The notes under the pieces are model-generated. The model worked only from the letters and a program-made list of their open reading frames with translations, was not told the origin of the DNA and ran no database searches. A program made the position numbers and the translations under genes. Positions 13,140 to 51,978 of a stretch of DNA of 64,000 nucleotides are shown one piece after another. Origin of the DNA: Pelotomaculum thermopropionicum SI. GTDB taxonomy: Bacteria; Bacillota; Desulfotomaculia; Desulfotomaculales; Pelotomaculaceae. Position 1 is the stretch's first letter. Every line of letters starts with the position of its first letter. The stretch covers positions 1,178,001 through 1,242,000 of the forward strand of contig AP009389.1 in NCBI GenBank assembly GCA_000010565.1, read 5' to 3'.

Positions 13140-14363
13140 TCAAAAGGCCTTCAGCCTGGCCAGGTAGGCCTGGATCCCGTCGCTCTGGTACTGGTTGTTC
13201 CGCAGGGGTTCGGCCCACCAGCCGGCGATAATGTATTCACCGTTCCCGGCGGGGTAGAAGGAAAACTCGCGGCTAAATTTGCTGTTCCCGTACTTTAAAT
13301 CCCGGGTTGGATTGCCGTCCGGATCGGTTTTAATGATACGGGCCTGCGTTTCGCTGCCGGAATCGGTCCAGCCGGCCACCAGGTAACCGCCGTCGCCGGT
13401 TTGCTGCACGGACTTTCCCGCGCCCCAGCCGCCGGCAAAGGCCCTTTCCCATTCCGGCGTGCCGCCGGCGCCGATTTTAGCCAGGTAGACGGCAAAGGCG
13501 CCGTCGTTAAAAGAAGAGGTCCGCCCAGTCAGGACATAGCCGCCGTCCTCCGTAGGGGCCAGCCATTCCGCAATATCCCAGCCTTTTCCGCCGAAGGTTC
13601 TTTCCCACTCTTTCCTGCCGCTTTCATCCGTTTTGGCCAGCAGGACGTCGTAACCGCCGTTTGCCGGCGAAAAGGCCCGGCCCGCCACCACGTAACCGCC
13701 GCCGGGGGCTTCAACGACGCACGCGCCCTGGTCGGTGTCCGGGCTGCCGAAGGTTTGCTCCCATAACAGCCGGCCGGACCGGTCGGTCCTGATCAGGTAT
13801 ATGTCGAAGTCGCCCGCCCCTGAGGAACTGGTGCTGCCGGCGGCCACAAAACCCCCGTCCGAGGTCTGCTCCACCCAGCAGAGGCAGTCCTCCCCCGGTC
13901 CTCCGTATCTTTTTTCCCACTGCCGCTGCCCGGAGGCGTCAATTTTGAGCAGGTATGCCTCGCTGTCTTTGCTGCTGCCGGCAGACCGGGTAGCGCCGGC
14001 AATGATGTAACCACCGTCGTCGGTCTGCCGCACGGACATACCGCTGTCGTTGCCGGTGCCGCCGATGGCCTTCTGCCACAGCAGGCGGCCGGCGGGGTCG
14101 AGCCTGATTACCAGCACGTCGTTGCCCCCGTTGCCGTGCAGGTAGCAGGAGGCGGTCTCGCCCACCGCGATAAAACCGCCGTCGCCGGTCATGCGGGCGT
14201 CAAAGCAGCGGTCGGCCTCCCGGCCGCCCAGCAAATTCTCCCATTCCAGATAAACGGCTTCGGACGCACCGGCCTGACAGTTTTTGGTTTTAGCGGCACA
14301 GGGAAAAAGGAACAACATCAGTATAAAAAAAGCGGGCACAAATCTTAAAAGAAACGAGCGCAT
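13140..14363 (-). CDS. Secreted seven-repeat beta-propeller protein
   Basis: About 407 residues on the minus strand. There is a signal-peptide-like N-terminus (FLLRFVPAFFILMLFLFP) and seven repeats of the form DGGYIVAGxTxS followed by aspartate-rich and W/GG motifs. These start near GDGGFIAVG and end with GNGEYIIAG, predicting a seven-bladed propeller. Such proteins are often annotated as outer-surface or WD40-like repeat proteins. ATG 14363 (preceded by GAGAAAGG) is preferred over ATG 14444, which lacks a ribosome site and would add a non-signal leader. It is divergent to the minor prepilin genes and lies inside the pilus locus, so a surface or pilus-tip role is possible but not shown. Confidence 0.75.
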   Translation of the reverse strand: MRSFLLRFVPAFFILMLFLFPCAAKTKNCQAGASEAVYLEWENLLGGREADRCFDARMTGDGGFIAVGETASCYLHGNGGNDVLVIRLDPAGRLLWQKAIGGTGNDSGMSVRQTDDGGYIIAGATRSAGSSKDSEAYLLKIDASGQRQWEKRYGGPGEDCLCWVEQTSDGGFVAAGSTSSSGAGDFDIYLIRTDRSGRLLWEQTFGSPDTDQGACVVEAPGGGYVVAGRAFSPANGGYDVLLAKTDESGRKEWERTFGGKGWDIAEWLAPTEDGGYVLTGRTSSFNDGAFAVYLAKIGAGGTPEWERAFAGGWGAGKSVQQTGDGGYLVAGWTDSGSETQARIIKTDPDGNPTRDLKYGNSKFSREFSFYPAGNGEYIIAGWWAEPLRNNQYQSDGIQAYLARLKAF

Positions 14364-42492: not shown

Positions 42493-43827
42493 TTAATTTT
42501 TACCGCAAACCTTTTCAAAGGCTTTTTCAAGCACTGCCAGGGCCCAATTGAGCTCGTCGTCGCCGATGATCAGGGGGGGCAGGAACCTCATAACATTGCT
42601 GTAAATACCCGCGCTCAAGACAATTAACCCCTGCTTGTAGCACTCGGATATAAGCTGGCCGGTAATTTCTTTGGCCGGCTCCTTCGTTTTCCTGTCTTTT
42701 ACCAGCTCTACCGCCACCATGGCGCCGAGGCCGCGCACATCTCCAATGACCTGATACTTTTCCTGCAATTCCTTGAGGCTTTGCTGTATTCTGGCGCCGA
42801 TCCGGGCCGCCCGTTCGGGCAGTTTTTCTTCTTGCATGATGTCAATTACCTGCAGGGCGGCGGCGCAAGACACCGGGTTGCCTCCGTAGGTTCCGCCGAT
42901 TTCGCCGGGATCGGGGGAATCCATGATTTCAGCCCGGCCGGTCACCGCGCTTAGCGGGAAGCCGGCGGCCAGCGACTTGGCAATGGTGATGATGTCCGGC
43001 GCAAGGCCGAAATGCTCGCAGGCGAACAGTTTCCCGGTACGGCCGAAGCCGGTTTGAATTTCGTCGACAACAAACAGGATGCCGTATTTTTCGCAGATTT
43101 GTTTTAACCCGGGCAGGAATTCCGGCGGGGGAACGATGAAACCGCCTTCTCCCTGAACGGGCTCGGCAATCAGGGCGGCAATGTTGTCCGCAGGCTGTTC
43201 GGCCACGAAGAACCTTTCCAGGTTGCTCAGGCAGCGCATGTCGCAAGAAGGGTATTCCAGCCCGAAGTAGCAGCGGTAGCAGTAGGCGGACGGAATCTTG
43301 TACACTTCCGGGGCAAAGGGCCCGAATCCGTATTTGTAAGGCCTTATTTTGCTGGTCAGGGTCATTGTCATCAGAGTCCGGCCGTGGAAAGCACATTCAA
43401 GCGCGATTATGCCTGTTCTTTTGGTGTATTTGCGGGCGATTTTGACAGCGTTTTCCACCGCCTCTGCGCCGCTGTTGGCAAACATGGTTTTTTTGGGAAA
43501 AGAGCCGGGCGTTATCGCTGCAAGCTTTTCGGCCAGGCGCACGTAAGGCTCGTACATGATCACATTGAAACTGGTGTGAATATATTTATCAATTTGCTCC
43601 TTGGCCGCTTTAACCACCTTTTCGTGGCGGTGCCCCACGTTTATCACGCCGATGCCGGTTGCAAAATCGATGTATCGGTTGCCGTCCACATCGGTGATTA
43701 CAGCCCCCTCTGCCTCTCCCGCGAAAACCTGCCCGCTGTTGGAAATGCCTTTGGGAACGTATTTTTTTCTGAGTTCCAATAGCTCTAAGGACTTTGGTCC
43801 GGGAATTTCTGTTTTGATGTTAATCAA
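42493..43827 (-). CDS. gabT: Class III aminotransferase, 4-aminobutyrate aminotransferase type
   Basis: 444-residue PLP enzyme that moves the amino group of an omega-amino acid (GABA, 5-aminovalerate, beta-alanine or similar) to 2-oxoglutarate. It shows the ATGIGVINVGHRH start, SGAEAVENAVKIARKYT, AFHGRTLMTMTLT, DEIQTGFGRTG and the PLP Lys in TIAKSLAAGFPLSAV. TTG 43827 with AAAGGGGG upstream is chosen; the frame extends 31 codons further without family similarity. A sigma-54 promoter lies 65 bases upstream, and a sigma-54 activator is encoded at 50290. Substrate specificity cannot be fixed by eye. Confidence 0.88.
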   Translation of the reverse strand: MINIKTEIPGPKSLELLELRKKYVPKGISNSGQVFAGEAEGAVITDVDGNRYIDFATGIGVINVGHRHEKVVKAAKEQIDKYIHTSFNVIMYEPYVRLAEKLAAITPGSFPKKTMFANSGAEAVENAVKIARKYTKRTGIIALECAFHGRTLMTMTLTSKIRPYKYGFGPFAPEVYKIPSAYCYRCYFGLEYPSCDMRCLSNLERFFVAEQPADNIAALIAEPVQGEGGFIVPPPEFLPGLKQICEKYGILFVVDEIQTGFGRTGKLFACEHFGLAPDIITIAKSLAAGFPLSAVTGRAEIMDSPDPGEIGGTYGGNPVSCAAALQVIDIMQEEKLPERAARIGARIQQSLKELQEKYQVIGDVRGLGAMVAVELVKDRKTKEPAKEITGQLISECYKQGLIVLSAGIYSNVMRFLPPLIIGDDELNWALAVLEKAFEKVCGKN

Positions 43828-43892
43828 TGCTTCAGCCCCCTTTGAAATTGGCCCGTTTAAAGTTAATAAAGAATGGCTAACAAAATAAATGA

Positions 43893-43907
43893 GCAAATGT
43901 TGTGCCA
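43893..43907 (-). promoter_or_regulatory. Sigma-54 (RpoN) -24/-12 promoter of the aminotransferase gene
   Basis: Read on the minus strand the sequence is TGGCAC-AACAT-TTGC: an exact -24 TGGCAC and -12 TTGC, with the required ten bases between GG and GC. It is 65 bases before the TTG start. Transcription therefore needs RpoN and an AAA+ activator, for which the product of the gene at 50290 is the obvious candidate. Confidence 0.85.
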
Positions 43908-44108
43908 GCAAGAAGAGCATTTATTTTTTCCTCCGCAAATTGTGTTATTTGATACGTTTAATGAAAAATTCATTATATAACTGTAAAGAATGCTTTGTAT
44001 ACATAATGCAATTGGGCATGATTTTAATTTTTTTAAATAAAACTTTACAAAATTTGATGGTGATGTTAAAATCTAAATCAAAATTTATTTAATATCTATT
44101 ATGCATCA

Positions 44109-45013: not shown

Positions 45014-46000
45014 ATGGGACAGAGGGATTACAATGTTATTTTAGACAGGCTTCCCGAAGCCGGTTCCAGGCCGGAGGTGCTCTTCAGGCAGGCCGGCGAC
45101 GGATTTCTCCAGGTTGAATATGGGGCAGTCCCACGGTTTAATCTGGTGGATTCCTTTCGCGTTTTAACCATAAACAACGCCGTAAAAGCAAAAAAAATAA
45201 AAGGACTTTATGAAACCGTCCCCGGGTTAAGAACAAATCTTTTCCACTTTGATCCAGAAGCGCTTTCTGTTCGCGATTTAATCAGTGCTATTAAGGAAGA
45301 AGAAGAAAAACTGGCTCAAGTTGAAGACATTGAGTTTGAGTCCCGTCTAATTTTGCTGCCTATAGCCTTTGAGGACAGCGAGACCAAAAAAGCGGTGGAG
45401 AAATACGTCAGAGAGGTAAGGCCTGATGCCCCCAACGTTATCAACGGCTATAACATAGAATATATGGCTCTTTGCAACGGTGTGACGGTTGAAGATATAA
45501 AGCGAATGGTTTGCGGCACGGAATGGTATAACAGCGGCAACGGCTTCTGGCCGGGCGGCGGATTTTTCTGGCCTTTAGACCCGAGATGCGCCATTGTCGT
45601 ACCCAAATACAACCCGCCTAGAACATGGACTCCTGAGGGCACCGTGGGCATTGGGGGGCCTTGTCTTTACGTTTACCCCACTCCTACCGGCGGCGGTTAC
45701 CAGTTGTTCGGCAGGACCATCCCCATCTTTCAGTTTGCCCAGAAACACCCGCTTTTCAAAGAAAGCCCCACCTTTTTCCGGGCCGGCGACCGGATTAGAT
45801 TTCATGAAGTAAGTGAAGAAGAAGTCTTGTATATTTACAAGCATGTGCATGAAGAAACCGACTATGAGTATGACATAACCCCGGGTATTTTTAAAGTGAG
45901 GGACTGGCTTGATTTTTACACTTCTGAAGAGGTGCAAAGAGGGTATAAAGAATTGCTGGCCAAACAGGAAGCCGGGACAAAAATTGCGCCCAAAGTTTAA
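45014..46000 (+). CDS. PxpB-like carboxyltransferase subunit (allophanate hydrolase subunit 1 / KipI family)
   Basis: 328 residues, longer than the usual 220-250 of PxpB. Family landmarks are LRTNLFHFDPEALS, YNIEYMALCNGVT, the GFWPGGGFFWPLDPR loop (GFxPGFxY in most), the RTWTPEGTVGIGG stretch and YQLFGRTIPIF. In 5-oxoprolinase (PxpABC) this subunit works with PxpC and PxpA; in urea or guanidine carboxylases the same domain is part of the carboxyltransferase. Here it heads an operon that also encodes biotin carboxylase and biotin carrier, favouring a biotin-dependent role. GGAGGT precedes the ATG. Confidence 0.82.
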   Translation: MGQRDYNVILDRLPEAGSRPEVLFRQAGDGFLQVEYGAVPRFNLVDSFRVLTINNAVKAKKIKGLYETVPGLRTNLFHFDPEALSVRDLISAIKEEEEKLAQVEDIEFESRLILLPIAFEDSETKKAVEKYVREVRPDAPNVINGYNIEYMALCNGVTVEDIKRMVCGTEWYNSGNGFWPGGGFFWPLDPRCAIVVPKYNPPRTWTPEGTVGIGGPCLYVYPTPTGGGYQLFGRTIPIFQFAQKHPLFKESPTFFRAGDRIRFHEVSEEEVLYIYKHVHEETDYEYDITPGIFKVRDWLDFYTSEEVQRGYKELLAKQEAGTKIAPKV

Positions 46001-46029
46001 CTGCAAACATTAGAACAGGGGGATGCAAA

Positions 46030-47013
46030 ATGCTAAAAATAATCAACGGAGGAATTGAGACTGTTATAGAGGACTGGCCTGGCAGAATCGGGTACCTGGA
46101 TAACGGCATGTCTTCTTCTGGGGCTTTTGACAATGTTGCACTGGGCCTGGCCAATATACTGGTTGGGAACCCTCCCGGGGAAGCGGGCATAGAAATTGCC
46201 GGAGGCTATTTTCAGGCCGAGTTTGGTATTGATACCGTTATCAGCATTACCGGAACAGATATGAAACCCACATTAAACGGCGAACCCGTTCCTATGTGGG
46301 AGGCGGTTGAGGTTAAGAAAGGCGATGTTGTAAAGTTTTCCCATTTCGGCGAGTTAGGTTTCCGGGCTTATATCGGCGTGGCAGGCGGCATAGATGTGCC
46401 TTTTTACCTTGGCAGCAAGTCCACGTGCCTTTTTGGCAGCTACGGTGGTTTTGAAGGCCGGAAGTTGCAGAAGGACGACATAATCAAATTTGGCAAACCG
46501 TATCAGGCCCTTAGCGCTTTAGCCGGCAGAAAGCTCAAGAAGGAAGCTATTCCCCGGTACTCCAGGGAATGGGTTTTGAGGGCCATGCCCGGTCCTAACA
46601 CCTGCCCTGATTATCTGACTAAAGAAGGAATGGACTACCTCTATGAAAACTCATTTAAAATACAGCTTAATTCCAACCGTTCGGCAGTGCGCCTTGCCGA
46701 AGCGAAGGATCTGGCCTTCGCCCGGCCGGATGGCGGAGTGGCCGGAGGCCACCCGTCGAACGTTCTGGATCATGCCTACGCCATCCGGGGCACGCTGAAT
46801 ATTTGCGGCAATACACCGATTTTGCTTATTGCGGATGGGCCTACCCTCGGCGGGTACATGAATGCGCTTCAGGTGATTTATGCCGATCTCTGGAAGGTTG
46901 GTCAGGGAACGCCGGGCAGGGATTTCGTGAGGTTTATTTACTGTACGCAGGAGGAGGCTATTCAAGCCCGGAAAGAGCAAAGAGAGTGGCTCAGCGAAAA
47001 ATCCCTGGCCTGA
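46030..47013 (+). CDS. PxpC-like biotin-dependent carboxyltransferase subunit (allophanate hydrolase subunit 2 / KipA family)
   Basis: 327 residues of the AHS2 family, with VIEDWPGRIGYLDNGMSSSG (usual form QDxGRxGxxxxGVxxSG), GFRAYIGVAGGIDVP, the SNRSAVRLA motif and a C-terminal PTLGGYMNALQVI. With the preceding protein it makes the carboxyltransferase or amide-opening core. ATG follows GGGGATG-type spacing 30 bases after the upstream stop. Confidence 0.85.
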   Translation: MLKIINGGIETVIEDWPGRIGYLDNGMSSSGAFDNVALGLANILVGNPPGEAGIEIAGGYFQAEFGIDTVISITGTDMKPTLNGEPVPMWEAVEVKKGDVVKFSHFGELGFRAYIGVAGGIDVPFYLGSKSTCLFGSYGGFEGRKLQKDDIIKFGKPYQALSALAGRKLKKEAIPRYSREWVLRAMPGPNTCPDYLTKEGMDYLYENSFKIQLNSNRSAVRLAEAKDLAFARPDGGVAGGHPSNVLDHAYAIRGTLNICGNTPILLIADGPTLGGYMNALQVIYADLWKVGQGTPGRDFVRFIYCTQEEAIQARKEQREWLSEKSLA

Positions 47014-47053
47014 AATGAAGAACAAATAAAATAAAGAAAGAGGTGAAATTTTC

Positions 47054-47803
47054 ATGGATCTGAACGTGGATATGGGTGAAAGCTTTGGCAGGTATAAGCT
47101 CGGCAATGACGGCGAAGTGATGAGATATATTACCTCGGCGAATGTTGCCTGCGGTTTTCATGCCGGTGACCCGCTGGTGATGCATGAAACCGTCCGCCTG
47201 GCCAGGGAATACGGCGTTGCTGTAGGTGCTCATACAGGCCTTGAAGACAGGAGGGGGTTTGGCAGAAGGCGCGTGGAGATAACTCCTGAAGAATTGAAAA
47301 GCGACACGCTGTACCAGTTAGGGGCACTGGATGCGTTTCTAAAAGTAAACGGCATGAAGATGCAGCATGTAAAACCGCATGGAATACTTTACCGGATGGT
47401 TTCTGACGATGAAAAATACGCTTTGGCATACCTGGAAGCGGTTAAGTCGTATAATCCAGCATTATATATATTTGTTCCCAGAGGAACGCTGATCTGGCAA
47501 TTCGGCAAGGAAATGGGGCTTAAGATGGCTGCCGAAATTCTTGTGGACTTAAGCTACGACGATAACGGCAACTGGGTTTTAGAGCGGACCAAAAAGGCCT
47601 GGTCCCCTGATGAAGTGGCGGAAAGGGCAGTGATGGTTGCCAGGGACAAAAAGATAAGCACCGTTAGCGGAAAGCTTATTGACGCAGAGGCGGACACCAT
47701 TTGCTGCCATGGCGATTCACCAAATGCTGCTGAAGTGGTAAAAAGGATCAGGGAAGAATTTGAAAGGCTGAACATACCACTGCAAAAACTTGGCGAAGTT
47801 TAG
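47054..47803 (+). CDS. pxpA: PxpA-like LamB/YcsF family protein
   Basis: 249 residues. It starts DLNVDMGESFGRYKLG, followed by SANVACGFHAGDPLVM, GAHTGLEDRRGFGRR, VKPHGILY and a C-terminal TICCHGDSPNA. LamB/YcsF proteins are the ATP-dependent ring-opening partner of PxpBC in 5-oxoprolinase. Its substrate here may be 5-oxoproline or another lactam. Confidence 0.9.
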   Translation: MDLNVDMGESFGRYKLGNDGEVMRYITSANVACGFHAGDPLVMHETVRLAREYGVAVGAHTGLEDRRGFGRRRVEITPEELKSDTLYQLGALDAFLKVNGMKMQHVKPHGILYRMVSDDEKYALAYLEAVKSYNPALYIFVPRGTLIWQFGKEMGLKMAAEILVDLSYDDNGNWVLERTKKAWSPDEVAERAVMVARDKKISTVSGKLIDAEADTICCHGDSPNAAEVVKRIREEFERLNIPLQKLGEV

Positions 47804-47831
47804 GTTAACAGTAACGGGAGGAGGAACATAA

Positions 47832-48050
47832 ATGGAAGTAGTGGTAAAAGCTCACATGCCGGGCTTGGTTGCACGGGTGGTAGTTAATGAGGGAGAACGG
47901 GTTACAGCCGGTCAGGAAGTTGCAGTGATAAACTGTATGAAGACCGAGATATCGGTTATCACCGAAACTGACGGAGTGGTGAAGGACATTCTGGTAAAAG
48001 AATGGGATGAAATGGAGATAGGAAGCCCGATGATAGTTCTGGAAGCATAA
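47832..48050 (+). CDS. Small biotin carboxyl carrier protein
   Basis: 72 residues forming just a biotinyl domain. MPGLVARVVVNEGERVTAGQ is followed by the biotin Lys in NCMKTEIS (EAMKM in most carriers) and a closing half ending in GSPMIVLEA. It lies between pxpA and a biotin carboxylase gene, so it is dedicated to this operon rather than to general fatty-acid synthesis. AGGAGGA precedes the ATG. Confidence 0.88.
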   Translation: MEVVVKAHMPGLVARVVVNEGERVTAGQEVAVINCMKTEISVITETDGVVKDILVKEWDEMEIGSPMIVLEA

Positions 48051-48074
48051 GTATTAATCGTGAAGGAAGATGAA

Positions 48075-49463
48075 ATGGTGATAAAAAAGCTGCTGATTGC
48101 CAACCGGGGAGAAATAGTGCCCAGGGTTATGAGAGCCTGCCGCGAGCTGGGCATTAAAACCGTAGCGGTTTATTCCGATGCCGACAGGGGCATGTCTTAC
48201 CTGAACGAAGCTGATGAGGCATATAACATCGGTCCTGCCAATCCTCTTAAAAGCTATCTTAACATAGATGCAATTATTAATGCATTAAAAGCGTCCGGTG
48301 CTGATGCCGTTCACCCTGGATACGGGTTTCTTTCGGAAAACGCGTTGTTTGCAGAGACGGTTTCTGCCAGCGGGGCGACGTGGGTTGGCCCTCCCCCGCC
48401 GGTTTTAAAGGCCATTGATTCAAAATGCTTTTGCCGTAAGATTGCTACTGATGCCGGCGTGCCGGTTGTGCCCGGAACAATTAACACAATTAATGAAGTA
48501 AACGAAGTGTATCAGTTTGCGGCTCGATACGGATATCCCATTGTTCTTAAACTTGATAAAGGGGGCGGAGGCAAAGGCATTGAACTGGTAAAAGAAGAGA
48601 GTCAGGTTAAGGGTGCTTTTGAAAGGCTTTCGAGAATTGGATTGATGGCCTTCGGCCACCCCGAATGTTACATTGAAAAAGAAGTAAACAGCCCCAGGCA
48701 TATAGAAATCCAGTTTCTTGCCGACAAGTACGGCAACTGTATATGCCTGGGCGAAAGAGAATGCTCCGTCCAGAGGCGCTATCAGAAAATTATAGAAGAA
48801 TCGCCTTCTCCTGTGGTCAATGAAAATGAAAGGAAAAGACTTTTCGATTATACGCGCCAACTGGCTCTGGCTATGGGCTATGAAGGAGCAGGCACGATGG
48901 AATTTTTAAGGTCTGCCGACGGACATTTCTACTTCATGGAGATAAATGCCAGATTACAGGTCGAACACCCTGTCACGGAGTTAATTACAGGTATTGACAT
49001 TGTTAAAAAGCAGCTTTCGATTGCGGCCGGGGAAAAAATTGCCATCGGGCAGGAAGACGTAACCTTTCAAGGACATGCTATTGAAGCCAGAGTTTATGCC
49101 GAGGATCCCGTTACGTTCTGTCCATCTCCCGGAACTGTTAAAAAGCTGAGCTTTCCTGTTATGAACGGAAATGCCCTCCGCATCGATCACGCTCTTGAGG
49201 AAGGGGTTGCTGTCCCGCCCTATTACGATCCATTGCTGGCCAAGGTTATTGCCTGGGGGGCGACCCGCCGGGAAGCTATTGAAAGGCTGCGGGATGCTCT
49301 GGCCGGTTTTGGCATCGAGGGGATAAAGACGACCATACCGGTTAACCTTTTGATCTTGAATAACGAGAAATTTGTCTTAGGGGAAATAGATACGGGGTTC
49401 ATCGAAACTTTGAATTTAAAGGAAAACAAAGATTTGCTGAAACCATTATGGCCGTGTTTGTAA
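48075..49463 (+). CDS. Biotin carboxylase, second copy (pxp operon)
   Basis: 462 residues, ATP-grasp. The N-terminus reads [19 protein letters not shown], where most carboxylases have AVRIIRA. The ATP loop is LDKGGGGKGIEL and the active site [14 protein letters not shown]. It is distinct from the copy at 34114. ATG 48075 is better spaced from AAGGAAG than GTG 48060. It supplies carboxybiotin to the carrier encoded next to it. Confidence 0.88.
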   Translation: MVIKKLLIANRGEIVPRVMRACRELGIKTVAVYSDADRGMSYLNEADEAYNIGPANPLKSYLNIDAIINALKASGADAVHPGYGFLSENALFAETVSASGATWVGPPPPVLKAIDSKCFCRKIATDAGVPVVPGTINTINEVNEVYQFAARYGYPIVLKLDKGGGGKGIELVKEESQVKGAFERLSRIGLMAFGHPECYIEKEVNSPRHIEIQFLADKYGNCICLGERECSVQRRYQKIIEESPSPVVNENERKRLFDYTRQLALAMGYEGAGTMEFLRSADGHFYFMEINARLQVEHPVTELITGIDIVKKQLSIAAGEKIAIGQEDVTFQGHAIEARVYAEDPVTFCPSPGTVKKLSFPVMNGNALRIDHALEEGVAVPPYYDPLLAKVIAWGATRREAIERLRDALAGFGIEGIKTTIPVNLLILNNEKFVLGEIDTGFIETLNLKENKDLLKPLWPCL

Positions 49464-49504
49464 TGCGTTTTTAAGAGTGCTTCTTGAATGGGGAGGTGCA
49501 GGTT

Positions 49505-50101
49505 GTGGAAGAAAAAAGCAGCGTTAGTGTAAAAATTAATATTGCCGACGCCGGACCGGCAGGCTGGATTTCTTACTCTATAGCAACCTGGATGGCATGG
49601 GCTTTTCTATGTGGTTACGTCAACAACAAAGCACTTATTTTTATGTCGGCTGTTTCGCTGGCATGCACCATTCCGTACCTTGGAGCAGCAATTACCCAGC
49701 TCAAGCTGGGTAATCTGGCGGGCGGTGTAACCTGGCTATACTTTGGCTCATTTTTTGCCTTTGCCTCGGCCCTAAATTACGGGATAAGCTATTTTGCAGG
49801 AGTTTACAAATGGGAGCTGGATTCGCGCATCCTCGGTTATGAATGGTTAATTTTGGGGATAGTCCTCATTTTAACCACCCCTATTTTTGCCAGGCATGCC
49901 CCTGCCGCAGCAACGATTTCTGTAATCGGCGCAGATGTAGGAATTGTAACCCTTGCCTTGATCTATTGGGGGCTTAACCTGTCTCTGCTAAGCGGCTGGT
50001 CCTTTTTTGTGGCAGGGTTATTCGGTATCATTATGGCTGCCGGGGGTATTCTGGAAGGGGCTGGAATGAAATTTCCCATGGGCAGGCCGCTTTTCAAGTG
50101 A
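49505..50101 (+). CDS. Six-helix membrane transporter, GPR1/FUN34/YaaH-like
   Basis: 198 residues with six predicted membrane segments and a C-terminal FPMGRPLFK tail. The stretch PYLGAAITQLKLGNLAGG followed by VTWLYFGSFFAFA resembles the GxAQxxAGxWxxxxGNTFGAT-YGxFW core of the acetate/succinate transporter family. AmiS/UreI-type amide channels have a similar size and are an alternative that would fit an amide-using operon. GTG 49505 with GGGGAGGT is chosen over TTG 49484. Probably the uptake protein of the operon. Confidence 0.62.
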   Translation: MEEKSSVSVKINIADAGPAGWISYSIATWMAWAFLCGYVNNKALIFMSAVSLACTIPYLGAAITQLKLGNLAGGVTWLYFGSFFAFASALNYGISYFAGVYKWELDSRILGYEWLILGIVLILTTPIFARHAPAAATISVIGADVGIVTLALIYWGLNLSLLSGWSFFVAGLFGIIMAAGGILEGAGMKFPMGRPLFK

Positions 50102-50201: not shown

Positions 50202-50289
50202 GTTCTCATGTTAAAACGGGCTTTAAAGCCCGGGCGCTGATATGCTATGATAAAGCAGAGAATGTTTATTGCTAATGAGGTGGAACTGC

Positions 50290-51978
50290 TTGCAGCGGGA
50301 AAAATTTTTTGACCTTGTACCTGTAGGGATAATATTTTACGATGGAAAAGGTTCCGTCATTGCAGCGAATGAGCTGGCCAGTAAGATAATTGAAGAAAAT
50401 AATATTGATATTAATGATGGCATCAGCAATAAACCCGGGGCATGGAAGATTATGGCAGGCAATAAAACTTATGTTGCCGGGCGGGTTGAAATAGGTGATG
50501 CCCTGGTCAAAAAGGCTGTTTTTTTAATTGACATAACCGGGTGGGAATTTTACTGGAACGAACTGAACGAACTTAAGGAACAGGTAAAGGAACTGGAAGA
50601 TACTTTTAACTCTTCTTTTGACGAGATCTATGTTATTGACGGTAAGGGGATTACAAAAAGAATTAACAAAGCGGGTGAGACAAATTACGGTGTGCCCGTG
50701 GAGAACCTTCTGGGCAAAAATGTCGCCGACCTGGAAAGGGAGGGCTATTATAATCCTTCGGTTTCAAGGATGGTCTTCCGGGAGAAAAAGCGCATTACCA
50801 TTACCCAGAAGACGAAAAGCGGCAAGCATTTAATAGCCACCGGAAACCCCATTTTTGATGAAAACGGGGAAATCATTAGGGTGGTGGTGAACTCCAGGGA
50901 TATCTCCGAACTGCTGAACCTGCGGAAGCAACTGGAGGACACCGAACAACTGGTGGAAAGCTACCGCCAGCAGCTTTTGAAGCTAAGCCAGGAAAGGATC
51001 AGGAGCGATGAGCTGATTGCCAGAAGCCCCCAGATGAAAAAGGTAATCGAAATGGTTGACAAGGTTGCCCAGGTTGATTCCACGGTGCTGATTATGGGGG
51101 AGTCCGGCGTCGGCAAAGGCGTAATAGCCTCGCGCCTGCATAGACTGAGCAGGCGAGCCAAGGGCCCTTTTATAACCATTAACTGCGGAGCCATTCCGGA
51201 GCACTTGCTCGAATCGGAACTGTTCGGGTACGAGGGAGGCGCCTTCACCGGTGCCCGCAAGGAGGGCAAAAAGGGACTCCTGGAACTGGCCAACGGGGGA
51301 ACCGTTTTTCTTGACGAAATAACCGAGCTGCCGTTAAGCCTGCAGGTCAAACTGCTGCAAGTCATCCAGGATAAAAAGCTGATCCGGGTGGGGGGAAGCA
51401 AATATATCAGTGTTGACATCCGATTTGTGGCTGCTACCAACAAGGATATCCAGCGCATGGTGGCGGAAGGGCTGTTCAGGGAGGATTTGTACTACCGTCT
51501 GAACGTCATACCTGTTATTATTCCCCCGCTGCGCTACCGGCAGGAGGATATTCCCGTCCTTCTGGAATATTTTCTTGAGAAATTAAATACCAAGTATGAA
51601 AAAAATAAGAAATTTACGCCCGAAGCAATAGAAATTTTGAGGAATTACAACTGGCCCGGCAACGTCAGGGAACTGGAAAACCTTGTGGAAAGGCTGCTGG
51701 TTACCAAGGAAGGCAATGAAATAACCGTCAGCCACCTGCCCGAATATATCTTTGAAGGGAAAAGCCGTTTTCCCAACAGGATTTATGTGCTGGACATCTG
51801 CCCGTTAAAAGAGGCCGTTGAGGAAATGGAAAAGCAGCTCTTTTCCATGGCCTATAACCGCTTGAAAAATACATACAAGGTTGCCGATGCGCTGGCCATA
51901 AACCAGTCGACAGTTGTGCGGAAAATACAGAAGTACAATTTGTTGAGCCGGGCCGAAAGGCGCACCGAGAAGAAGTGA
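50290..51978 (+). CDS. Sigma-54-dependent transcriptional activator with PAS domains (RocR/PrdR-like)
   Basis: 562 residues: an N-terminal PAS-like domain (about 1-105), a second PAS (about 110-225, TRKRINKAGETNYGVP-like start, then a VVNSRDISELL exit helix), and an AAA+ domain with Walker A GESGVGKGVIASRL. The sigma-54 contact GAFTGA is present, with Walker B GGTVFLDEI and the R finger in REDLYYRLNVI. A Fis-type helix-turn-helix ends the protein (YKVADALAINQSTVVRKI). TTG 50290 after GAGGTGG is chosen. It is probably the activator of the sigma-54 promoter at 43893-43907 and senses a small ligand through PAS. Confidence 0.9.
   Translation: MQREKFFDLVPVGIIFYDGKGSVIAANELASKIIEENNIDINDGISNKPGAWKIMAGNKTYVAGRVEIGDALVKKAVFLIDITGWEFYWNELNELKEQVKELEDTFNSSFDEIYVIDGKGITKRINKAGETNYGVPVENLLGKNVADLEREGYYNPSVSRMVFREKKRITITQKTKSGKHLIATGNPIFDENGEIIRVVVNSRDISELLNLRKQLEDTEQLVESYRQQLLKLSQERIRSDELIARSPQMKKVIEMVDKVAQVDSTVLIMGESGVGKGVIASRLHRLSRRAKGPFITINCGAIPEHLLESELFGYEGGAFTGARKEGKKGLLELANGGTVFLDEITELPLSLQVKLLQVIQDKKLIRVGGSKYISVDIRFVAATNKDIQRMVAEGLFREDLYYRLNVIPVIIPPLRYRQEDIPVLLEYFLEKLNTKYEKNKKFTPEAIEILRNYNWPGNVRELENLVERLLVTKEGNEITVSHLPEYIFEGKSRFPNRIYVLDICPLKEAVEEMEKQLFSMAYNRLKNTYKVADALAINQSTVVRKIQKYNLLSRAERRTEKK

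Follow-up and report, generated by a model that had tools for sequence, protein, structure and literature searches.

Urea and guanidine carboxylases (TIGR02712; PDB 3va7 and 5i8i) consist of biotin carboxylase, AHS2, AHS1 and biotin carrier parts, and carboxylation by these enzymes precedes hydrolysis by an amidase, allophanate hydrolase. PxpABC, whose discovery was reportedly published by Niehaus in 2017, is an ATP-dependent 5-oxoprolinase without biotin that combines carboxyltransferase subunits of the same Pfam families (PxpB and PxpC) with the ring-opening subunit YcsF/PxpA. According to the available part of a recent report, PxpBC is assumed to phosphorylate 5-oxoproline (PMC13274462). 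ATP also pays for the opening of lactams to omega-amino acids by caprolactamase (CapAB) and further ATP-dependent lactamases. CapAB, which belongs to the HyuA/HyuB family and has no biotin, needs bicarbonate, and in the accessible portion of the paper its authors weigh a carboxylated lactim intermediate as one of three options (PMC8453981). Here we describe an operon of Pelotomaculum thermopropionicum SI that encodes a carboxyltransferase pair of the urea-carboxylase type together with a YcsF protein, a biotin carrier and a dedicated biotin carboxylase. The operon occupies positions 45014 to 50101 of a 64,000-nucleotide stretch (positions 1,178,001 to 1,242,000 of contig AP009389.1, forward strand), which is called the window below and to which coordinates refer unless stated otherwise. 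In contrast to urea/guanidine carboxylases, the catalytic parts are split into four proteins and the partner is YcsF instead of an amidase, although the general order of carboxylation before hydrolysis may be the same. Its proteins are unrelated to CapAB; what the two systems would share is the conversion of a lactam to an omega-amino acid at the cost of ATP.

All six genes of the operon are open and lie on the plus strand. The first two encode the AHS1/CT_C_D carboxyltransferase (328 aa; 45014..46000; PF02682, 153 bits) and the AHS2/CT_A_B carboxyltransferase (327 aa; 46030..47013; PF02626, 258.6 bits), both of the urea-carboxylase type. These are followed by a PxpA-like LamB/YcsF protein of 249 aa (47054..47803; PF03746, 300 bits), the proposed ring-opening hydrolase, a biotin carrier of 72 aa (47832..48050; PF00364, 44.6 bits) with the acceptor lysine K37 in the motif NCMKTE, a biotin carboxylase of 467 aa (48060..49463; PF00289, PF02786 and PF02785) and a membrane protein of 205 aa (49484..50101). 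Because the gaps between them measure 9 to 40 bases, the six genes were read as one operon. Scans of open reading frames (ORFs) and profiles bore out the order and coordinates given in the initial annotation, and the divergent class III aminotransferase and the activator that it had noted beside the operon are both real.

TIGR02712 is the top NCBIfam match for both carboxyltransferase subunits. AHS1 scored 226 bits with this profile compared to 55.7 bits with the PxpB profile TIGR00370, and AHS2 scored 290.4 bits compared to 177.5 bits with the PxpC profile NF045499; the PxpB and PxpC cut-offs of 145.55 and 500 bits were not reached. As four separate pieces (226, 290.4, 36.9 and 465.4 bits), the proteins also stay below the whole-protein equivalog cut-off of TIGR02712 (1303.85 bits). 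In the PDB, the fungal urea carboxylase 3va7 is nearest to both subunits, and AHS1 aligns with 3va7 822-1116. The AHS1 subunit has the urea-carboxylase form, in which an insertion (about residues 122-143) is accompanied by an extended C-terminus. The initial annotation had called the pair PxpB/PxpC and had remarked on an unusually long PxpB. The length of 328 aa is real and is accounted for by the urea-carboxylase-type subfamily, whereas the names refer to the wrong subfamily, as seen in profile scores, trees and diagnostic residues.

The trees of the CT_C_D and CT_A_B subunits (70 and 71 rows, respectively) include the relatives of the operon in other genomes, called the family below. In both trees the family forms one clade near Thermomicrobium and the urea carboxylases, with alphaproteobacterial and haloarchaeal biotin-linked forms next. 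Separate from this grouping are the PxpBC of E. coli, those of 12 loci in the window's class and the PxpBC that accompany biotin genes in Bradyrhizobium, Burkholderia and Lactiplantibacillus. The join of the family with Thermomicrobium has a support of 93/83 in the CT_A_B tree, and the CT_C_D tree does not fix the order of Thermomicrobium, urea carboxylases and family (75/9); several rows are long-branched. The residues of the family were compared with those of eight urea/guanidine carboxylases and 13 PxpBC. Twenty-six columns are common to the family and all eight carboxylases and are found in at most one of the 13 PxpBC, among them the R..GG..G.HPSN loop (AHS2 residues 232-250). Five columns are common to the family and 13/13 PxpBC and absent from the eight carboxylases (G145, F178, P180 and P202 of CT_C_D and T272 of CT_A_B), two of them in the GF.P block. 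A further 25 columns, one of which is the start methionine, are specific to the family, and some of these lie within the W.NS.GF.PG block. Judged by its residues, the pair keeps urea-carboxylase features next to blocks of its own, probably on the substrate side, which differ from those of urea/guanidine carboxylases, and it has a few traits of PxpBC. Among named relatives, Pelotomaculum propionicicum has the closest carboxyltransferase genes (84%). In the source genome, searched as a single contig of 3,025,375 bases, the AHS1 of the operon is the sole CT_C_D gene found.

YcsF passes two PxpA subfamily models (NF003814, 298.4 bits with a cut-off of 226; NF003816, 221.5 bits with a cut-off of 213) and is below the PxpA equivalog cut-offs (NF003813, 249.4 versus 392; NF003815, 203.9 versus 337; NF003812, 185.8 versus 378). 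It is the only YcsF found genome-wide. The family's YcsF sequences form four groups (26, 15, 3 and 2 rows in a quick tree), and YcsF is nonetheless always present. Swapping of the YcsF partner across the family is likely; the well-supported branches of the tree alone need no more than one origin. The acceptor lysine of the carrier is kept in 47/47 aligned carriers, 43 of the family and four references, an alignment that leaves out L073 and L084 since the window carrier query did not reach them. The ATP-grasp blocks of the biotin carboxylase align with AccC and urea carboxylase. Two biotin carboxylases are encoded in the genome, that of the operon and another at about 34-35.5 kb of the window adjoining a carrier-like ORF, and one match to the biotin/lipoate ligase family was found. 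The dedicated biotin carboxylase proposed at first thus stands as the second of two and lies inside the operon. With a biotin carboxylase, a carrier with its acceptor lysine and a carboxyltransferase, the operon appears from its sequence to be a biotin-dependent carboxylase in the broad sense. Gene content also agrees with the earlier proposal that two logics are joined here, a biotin-dependent carboxyltransferase and a LamB/YcsF ring-opening partner.

Scanning with one genome per species gave 50 loci (L038-L087), and the window and L033 brought the total examined to 52. Of these, 37 have at least 5.9 kb on each side (15 are short of flank), and without the CT_C_D fragments L082 and L086 there are 35 intact loci including the window. 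The 50 scanned loci belong mostly to Clostridia and their relatives and to desulfobacterial and related anaerobes, and span more than one phylum. Cultured anaerobes with the set include Clostridium ljungdahlii and Acetobacterium bakii. Both carboxyltransferase subunits, YcsF and the carrier are present in 35/35 intact loci and the biotin carboxylase in 31/35. Less constant neighbours are an aminotransferase (17), a sigma-54 activator (16), a DUF1097 membrane protein (14), an aldehyde:ferredoxin oxidoreductase (12), a biotin ligase (9) and a HyuA/HyuB (CapA/CapB-like) pair (3). Five rows with a stop in the matched stretch are omitted from the biotin carboxylase sequence set and kept in the locus counts. 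As a control we used 12 ordinary PxpB loci from 113 genomes of the window's class, 9 of which have 5.9 kb on both sides. With the same thresholds, biotin carboxylase, carrier and aminotransferase were each found in 0/12 within the stretch covered, and a looser search gave a single biotin carboxylase match (L130; 40 bits, 26%). One ordinary locus each has an aldehyde oxidoreductase (L127), a biotin ligase (L126) and a glutamate dehydrogenase (L134), and L129 is without YcsF. The linkage of the genes is beyond chance and recurs in most of the 50 loci; the unlinked distribution in relatives that the initial annotation had named as evidence against a joint pathway was not seen. Compared to PxpABC, the operon differs in its dedicated biotin carboxylase and carrier, in its neighbours and, as described below, in the sensor of its activator. 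A lack of biotin genes is not a strict definition of PxpABC, as PxpBC-type pairs with biotin genes exist elsewhere.

Upstream of the operon, on the minus strand, lies the gene of a class III, GABA-aminotransferase-like protein of 444 aa (42493..43827; PF00202, 462 bits). Its score of 591 bits with TIGR00700 is above the cut-off of 506.65. The ORF at 42493-43920 apparently is over-called at its 5' end, the likelier start being the TTG at 43827 behind the Shine-Dalgarno sequence AAAGGGGG. The one perfect sigma-54 site of the window, TGGCACAACATTTGCT (43892..43907, minus strand), lies 64 bases ahead of this start. There are 16 perfect sites genome-wide, compared to one for the reversed pattern. 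Since matches with at most two mismatches (47 in the window) are below expectation (62), only the perfect site was used. This promoter matches the PAS-containing sigma-54 activator of 569 aa that ends the operon (50269..51978, plus strand; PF00158, PF13426 and PF18024), whose best NCBIfam match is PrdR (440.8 bits, below the cut-off of 795). A perfect site also precedes the aminotransferase in L033, L043, L045, L061, L065 and L081; L061 has another before its aldehyde oxidoreductase and L065 another before its carboxyltransferase. Sites with one mismatch precede the carboxyltransferase in L039, L040 and L045. With at most one mismatch allowed, a site is found before the aminotransferase in 6/11 loci with an activator (the window counted by hand) compared to 1/11 without one (contig cut), and before the carboxyltransferase in 3/18 compared to 1/33. 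An activator occurs in 17 other family loci, including L082, and in 15 of these its sensor half matches that of the window, some matches extending over just 120 or so residues. None of the four activators beside ordinary PxpABC gave such a match, a difference that suggests a different inducer.

Aminotransferases of relatives are above the GABA-aminotransferase cut-off in L048 and L062 and slightly below it in L080. Homologues with E <1e-100 are present in 11/11 genomes of the class with an AHS1 gene, one of them (G067) with a fragment only, compared to 17/102 genomes without (Fisher p 3.7e-8, kinship uncorrected). In G010, G017 and G029 (loci L057, L051 and L044) no aminotransferase lies near the cluster. 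All of nine genomes searched, including those of L042, L069, L073 and L084, gave an aminotransferase match with E <1e-60, several of these distant or unlinked. The repeated linkage and the sigma-54 promoters strengthen the earlier assignment of the aminotransferase to the pathway: it probably belongs with the carboxylase system.

We give slightly better than even credence to a reading in which the five proteins act together as a biotin-dependent hydrolase, split into subunits, that activates the amide of a small lactam and opens the ring, the resulting omega-amino acid then being transaminated. The biotin carboxylase would consume ATP and bicarbonate in carboxylating the biotin of the 72-aa carrier; both proteins have the expected catalytic parts. 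The carboxyltransferase pair, to judge from its subfamily, would pass the carboxyl group to the ring nitrogen of the lactam, most likely 2-pyrrolidinone or 2-piperidone in view of the neighbouring genes. The N-carboxyl group would turn the amide into a better leaving group for hydrolysis by YcsF, in the way that PxpA presumably acts on 5-oxoproline, and the N-carboxy-amino acid would shed CO2, so that CO2 would act merely as a catalyst and ATP would pay for the reaction. This step is modelled on urea amidolyase, in which carboxylation readies urea for hydrolysis and which, in the part of the source available, is said to act in two steps (PMC3073912). The product, GABA or 5-aminovalerate, would be transaminated by the aminotransferase behind the sigma-54 promoter, whose linkage is observed; aldehyde:ferredoxin oxidoreductases could then oxidise the semialdehyde, or alcohol dehydrogenases could reduce it. 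Three points favoured a lactam rather than an open-chain amide: the need for an amino acid as product, the ring opening by YcsF elsewhere and the caprolactamase-like genes by three relatives. The available section of one study states that gut anaerobes make 2-piperidone from 5-aminovalerate and, via cross-feeding, from proline (PMC11196342), so such lactams would occur in habitat types of some family members.

Several observations weigh against biotin-dependent lactam opening followed by transamination. Four of the 35 intact loci (L042, L069, L073 and L084) have a carrier and no linked biotin carboxylase. The genomes of L069 and L073 have a biotin carboxylase domain only in pyruvate-carboxylase-sized proteins, and no such domain was found in the draft genome of L084 (Anoxynatronum buryatiense); that of L042 has one free-standing biotin carboxylase, not linked to the cluster. 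These assemblies may be incomplete; if they are not, the carrier would have to be charged in another way. In the branch of L066 (on a short contig), L069, L073 and L084, which has no linked biotin carboxylase and the carrier motif EAMKMEN or ESMKMEN, the carrier might receive its carboxyl group by transcarboxylation from a different donor. The aminotransferase is linked in just 17 of the 35 loci, and that of L074 is only 36% identical. Because close homologues occur in 17/102 cluster-free genomes it is not cluster-specific, and membership in the GABA-aminotransferase family leaves the chain length of the product unfixed. No recognisable sigma-54 site precedes the carboxylase operon of the window, and sigma-54 activators also adjoin 4/12 ordinary PxpABC loci. 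The last gene of the six encodes a distant relative of GPR1/FUN34/YaaH proteins, which are organic-acid transporters and not known as amide channels.

Among other explanations, the one that fares best, though we hold it to be unlikely, is a split urea/guanidine-type carboxylase for a straight-chain compound such as 4-guanidinobutyrate or a ureido acid, whose carboxylated form YcsF would cleave to GABA. The grouping of the carboxyltransferase pair with urea/guanidine carboxylases fits this, and a GABA-type product would suit the aminotransferase. However, no allophanate hydrolase above the TIGR02713 cut-off was found in the genome (best 221 versus 511.05 bits), and UAAP1/UAAP2, which adjoin 7/8 fused carboxylases, are missing among the eight operon and neighbour proteins scanned. 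The 25 family-specific columns, including residues of the W.NS.GF.PG block, also differ from urea carboxylases, and the known case of YcsF is the opening of a lactam.

Rather improbable is the same biotin-dependent chemistry with 5-oxoproline as substrate and glutamate as product. This would explain why YcsF passes two PxpA subfamily models, and with no second YcsF or CT_C_D found, the genome would otherwise have no PxpABC for 5-oxoproline. The biotin genes of Lactiplantibacillus are, in addition, paired with an NRAMP-type transporter, and YcsG is NRAMP-like. The 5-oxoproline transporter PxpT of C. glutamicum is given as a YcsG homologue in the available part of the source cited above (PMC13274462). 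Against this, the genomes G010 and G017 hold a family cluster as well as ordinary biotin-free PxpABC, the sensor half shared by most family activators is absent from the four activators beside ordinary PxpABC, and glutamate needs no GABA-type aminotransferase.

We consider it highly unlikely that the substrate is a cyclic ureide, either hydantoin or a dihydropyrimidine, which would be opened after carboxylation to yield beta-alanine or another amino acid. In its favour, a ureide nitrogen is similar to that of urea, on which the closest carboxyltransferases act; the Thermomicrobium cluster includes a xanthine dehydrogenase family gene, and HyuA/HyuB genes, of the hydantoinase/oxoprolinase family, adjoin three family loci. 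The HyuA and HyuB scanned (one each) are nearest to caprolactamase, however, and no dihydropyrimidinase was found among the part of the neighbour proteins that was scanned. An ordinary ATP-dependent, biotin-free 5-oxoprolinase that happens to adjoin unrelated biotin carboxylase and carrier genes is very hard to believe, for although no biotin carboxylase ORF is seen near the pxp locus of E. coli and database records name YcsF 5-oxoprolinase subunit PxpA, the pair misses the PxpB and PxpC equivalog cut-offs, carrier and biotin carboxylase recur in 35/35 and 31/35 family loci compared to 0/12 ordinary ones, and the carrier lysine is invariant.

If the lactam-opening reading is correct, it would provide biotin-based chemistry for opening unreactive amides and would account for where lactams such as 2-piperidone go in anaerobic communities; it would also hint at the kinship of 5-oxoprolinase with biotin-dependent carboxylases. 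A wider claim, to which we give a little less than an even chance, is that a further ATP-paid way of lactam opening, beside the phosphorylation assumed for PxpABC and CapAB, is widespread in anaerobes and has archaeal cousins, with carboxybiotin N-carboxylation and YcsF hydrolysis bringing lactams derived from proline, GABA or 5-aminovalerate back into fermentation; on this view the biotin-free PxpABC 5-oxoprolinase would be one branch of a wider family. Because database records label such genes as subunits of 5-oxoprolinase and of acetyl-CoA carboxylase, two wrong names may hide a catabolic step. In the part available of a 2025 genome paper on Lactiplantibacillus pentosus, pxpBC is reported separately from the biotin genes, which are interpreted as an additional acetyl-CoA carboxylase (PMC12427679); by analogy to a related plasmid (L099), we infer that the two would form one cluster.

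No description of a biotin-dependent YcsF system was found in the open-access literature searched, a scope outside which most subscription journals lie, and the function of the operon is, as far as these searches go, not in print. The initial annotation had spoken of the best candidate for an undescribed pathway; the gene arrangement as such recurs elsewhere, as split biotin and YcsF clusters also occur in alphaproteobacteria, haloarchaea and others. CT_C_D, CT_A_B, carrier and YcsF stand together in Thermomicrobium, haloarchaea, Rhizobium/Thioclava, Bradyrhizobium/Burkholderia and Lactiplantibacillus, with a biotin carboxylase in all except Thermomicrobium. These clusters represent deeper lineages with other neighbours, and those of Bradyrhizobium, Burkholderia and Lactiplantibacillus have carboxyltransferases of the PxpBC type.

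On a plasmid of Thermomicrobium roseum (L088 5695-9425), the carrier, both carboxyltransferase subunits and PxpA are followed by the biotin transporter BioY; an ABC transporter and the xanthine dehydrogenase family gene lie upstream, and no biotin carboxylase is annotated in the stretch. The clusters of Bradyrhizobium (L092 3551-8197) and Burkholderia (L093 3363-8254) have a PxpBC-type pair, a biotin carboxylase, two carrier-like genes and PxpA as well as a NAC regulator and an aspartate transaminase; biotin genes thus go with the PxpBC type too. On a Lactiplantibacillus plantarum plasmid (L099 4262-10536), pxpB, pxpC, carrier, biotin carboxylase, a putative hydro-lyase, pxpA and the NRAMP-type transporter lie between two IS30-family transposase genes. 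Among viral contigs, 36 stretches matched the search pattern, none of which codes for an AHS1 relative. In Desulfofundulus thermobenzoicus (L082 9001-9276), only the first 92 residues of AHS1 are encoded, adjoining a related activator, in what looks like a gene remnant.

The small transporter of the initial annotation is present as the 205-aa membrane protein with six predicted helices. It gave no direct match in Pfam, NCBIfam or the PDB, and a plasmid search with it gave none either. Since its AlphaFold model (mean pLDDT 52, which makes the six-helix prediction one of low confidence) was too poor for a fold search, the family was reached through distant relatives of 30-34% identity, of which 5/5 scanned matched PF01184 (GPR1/FUN34/YaaH). 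A transport role is likely, and the family is no help in naming the substrate. The corresponding gene of Pelotomaculum sp. UBA3103 (genome G109; L061, about 13242-13808) has one in-frame stop codon and was left out of the membrane protein alignment.

The HyuA/HyuB genes adjoin only L042, L045 and L065 and are absent among the operon proteins of the window; the HyuA of L042 and the HyuB of L045 are nearest to caprolactamase alpha and beta, respectively, and below the cut-offs. Iron-dependent alcohol dehydrogenases lie by L064, L077 and L080. They were considered as 4-hydroxybutyrate dehydrogenase, which was rejected as those scanned (L064 and L080) are far below every cut-off. An aldehyde:ferredoxin oxidoreductase gene is directly upstream of AHS1 in the close relatives L033 (6153-7889), L041 (654-2390) and L061 (6692-8581). 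A lost counterpart in the window was also rejected, no such ORF being listed in the 1.1 kb gap upstream of AHS1. Ten aldehyde oxidoreductases are encoded elsewhere in the genome. Because two of them are 57-59% identical to the linked ones of L033, L041, L061 and L039, none is a clear orthologue. Two perfect sigma-54 sites are found at positions 497566-497742 of the source genome before another aldehyde oxidoreductase gene (about 497.9-499.8 kb), which is followed by an ORF resembling alcohol dehydrogenase and apparently belongs to a separate regulon.

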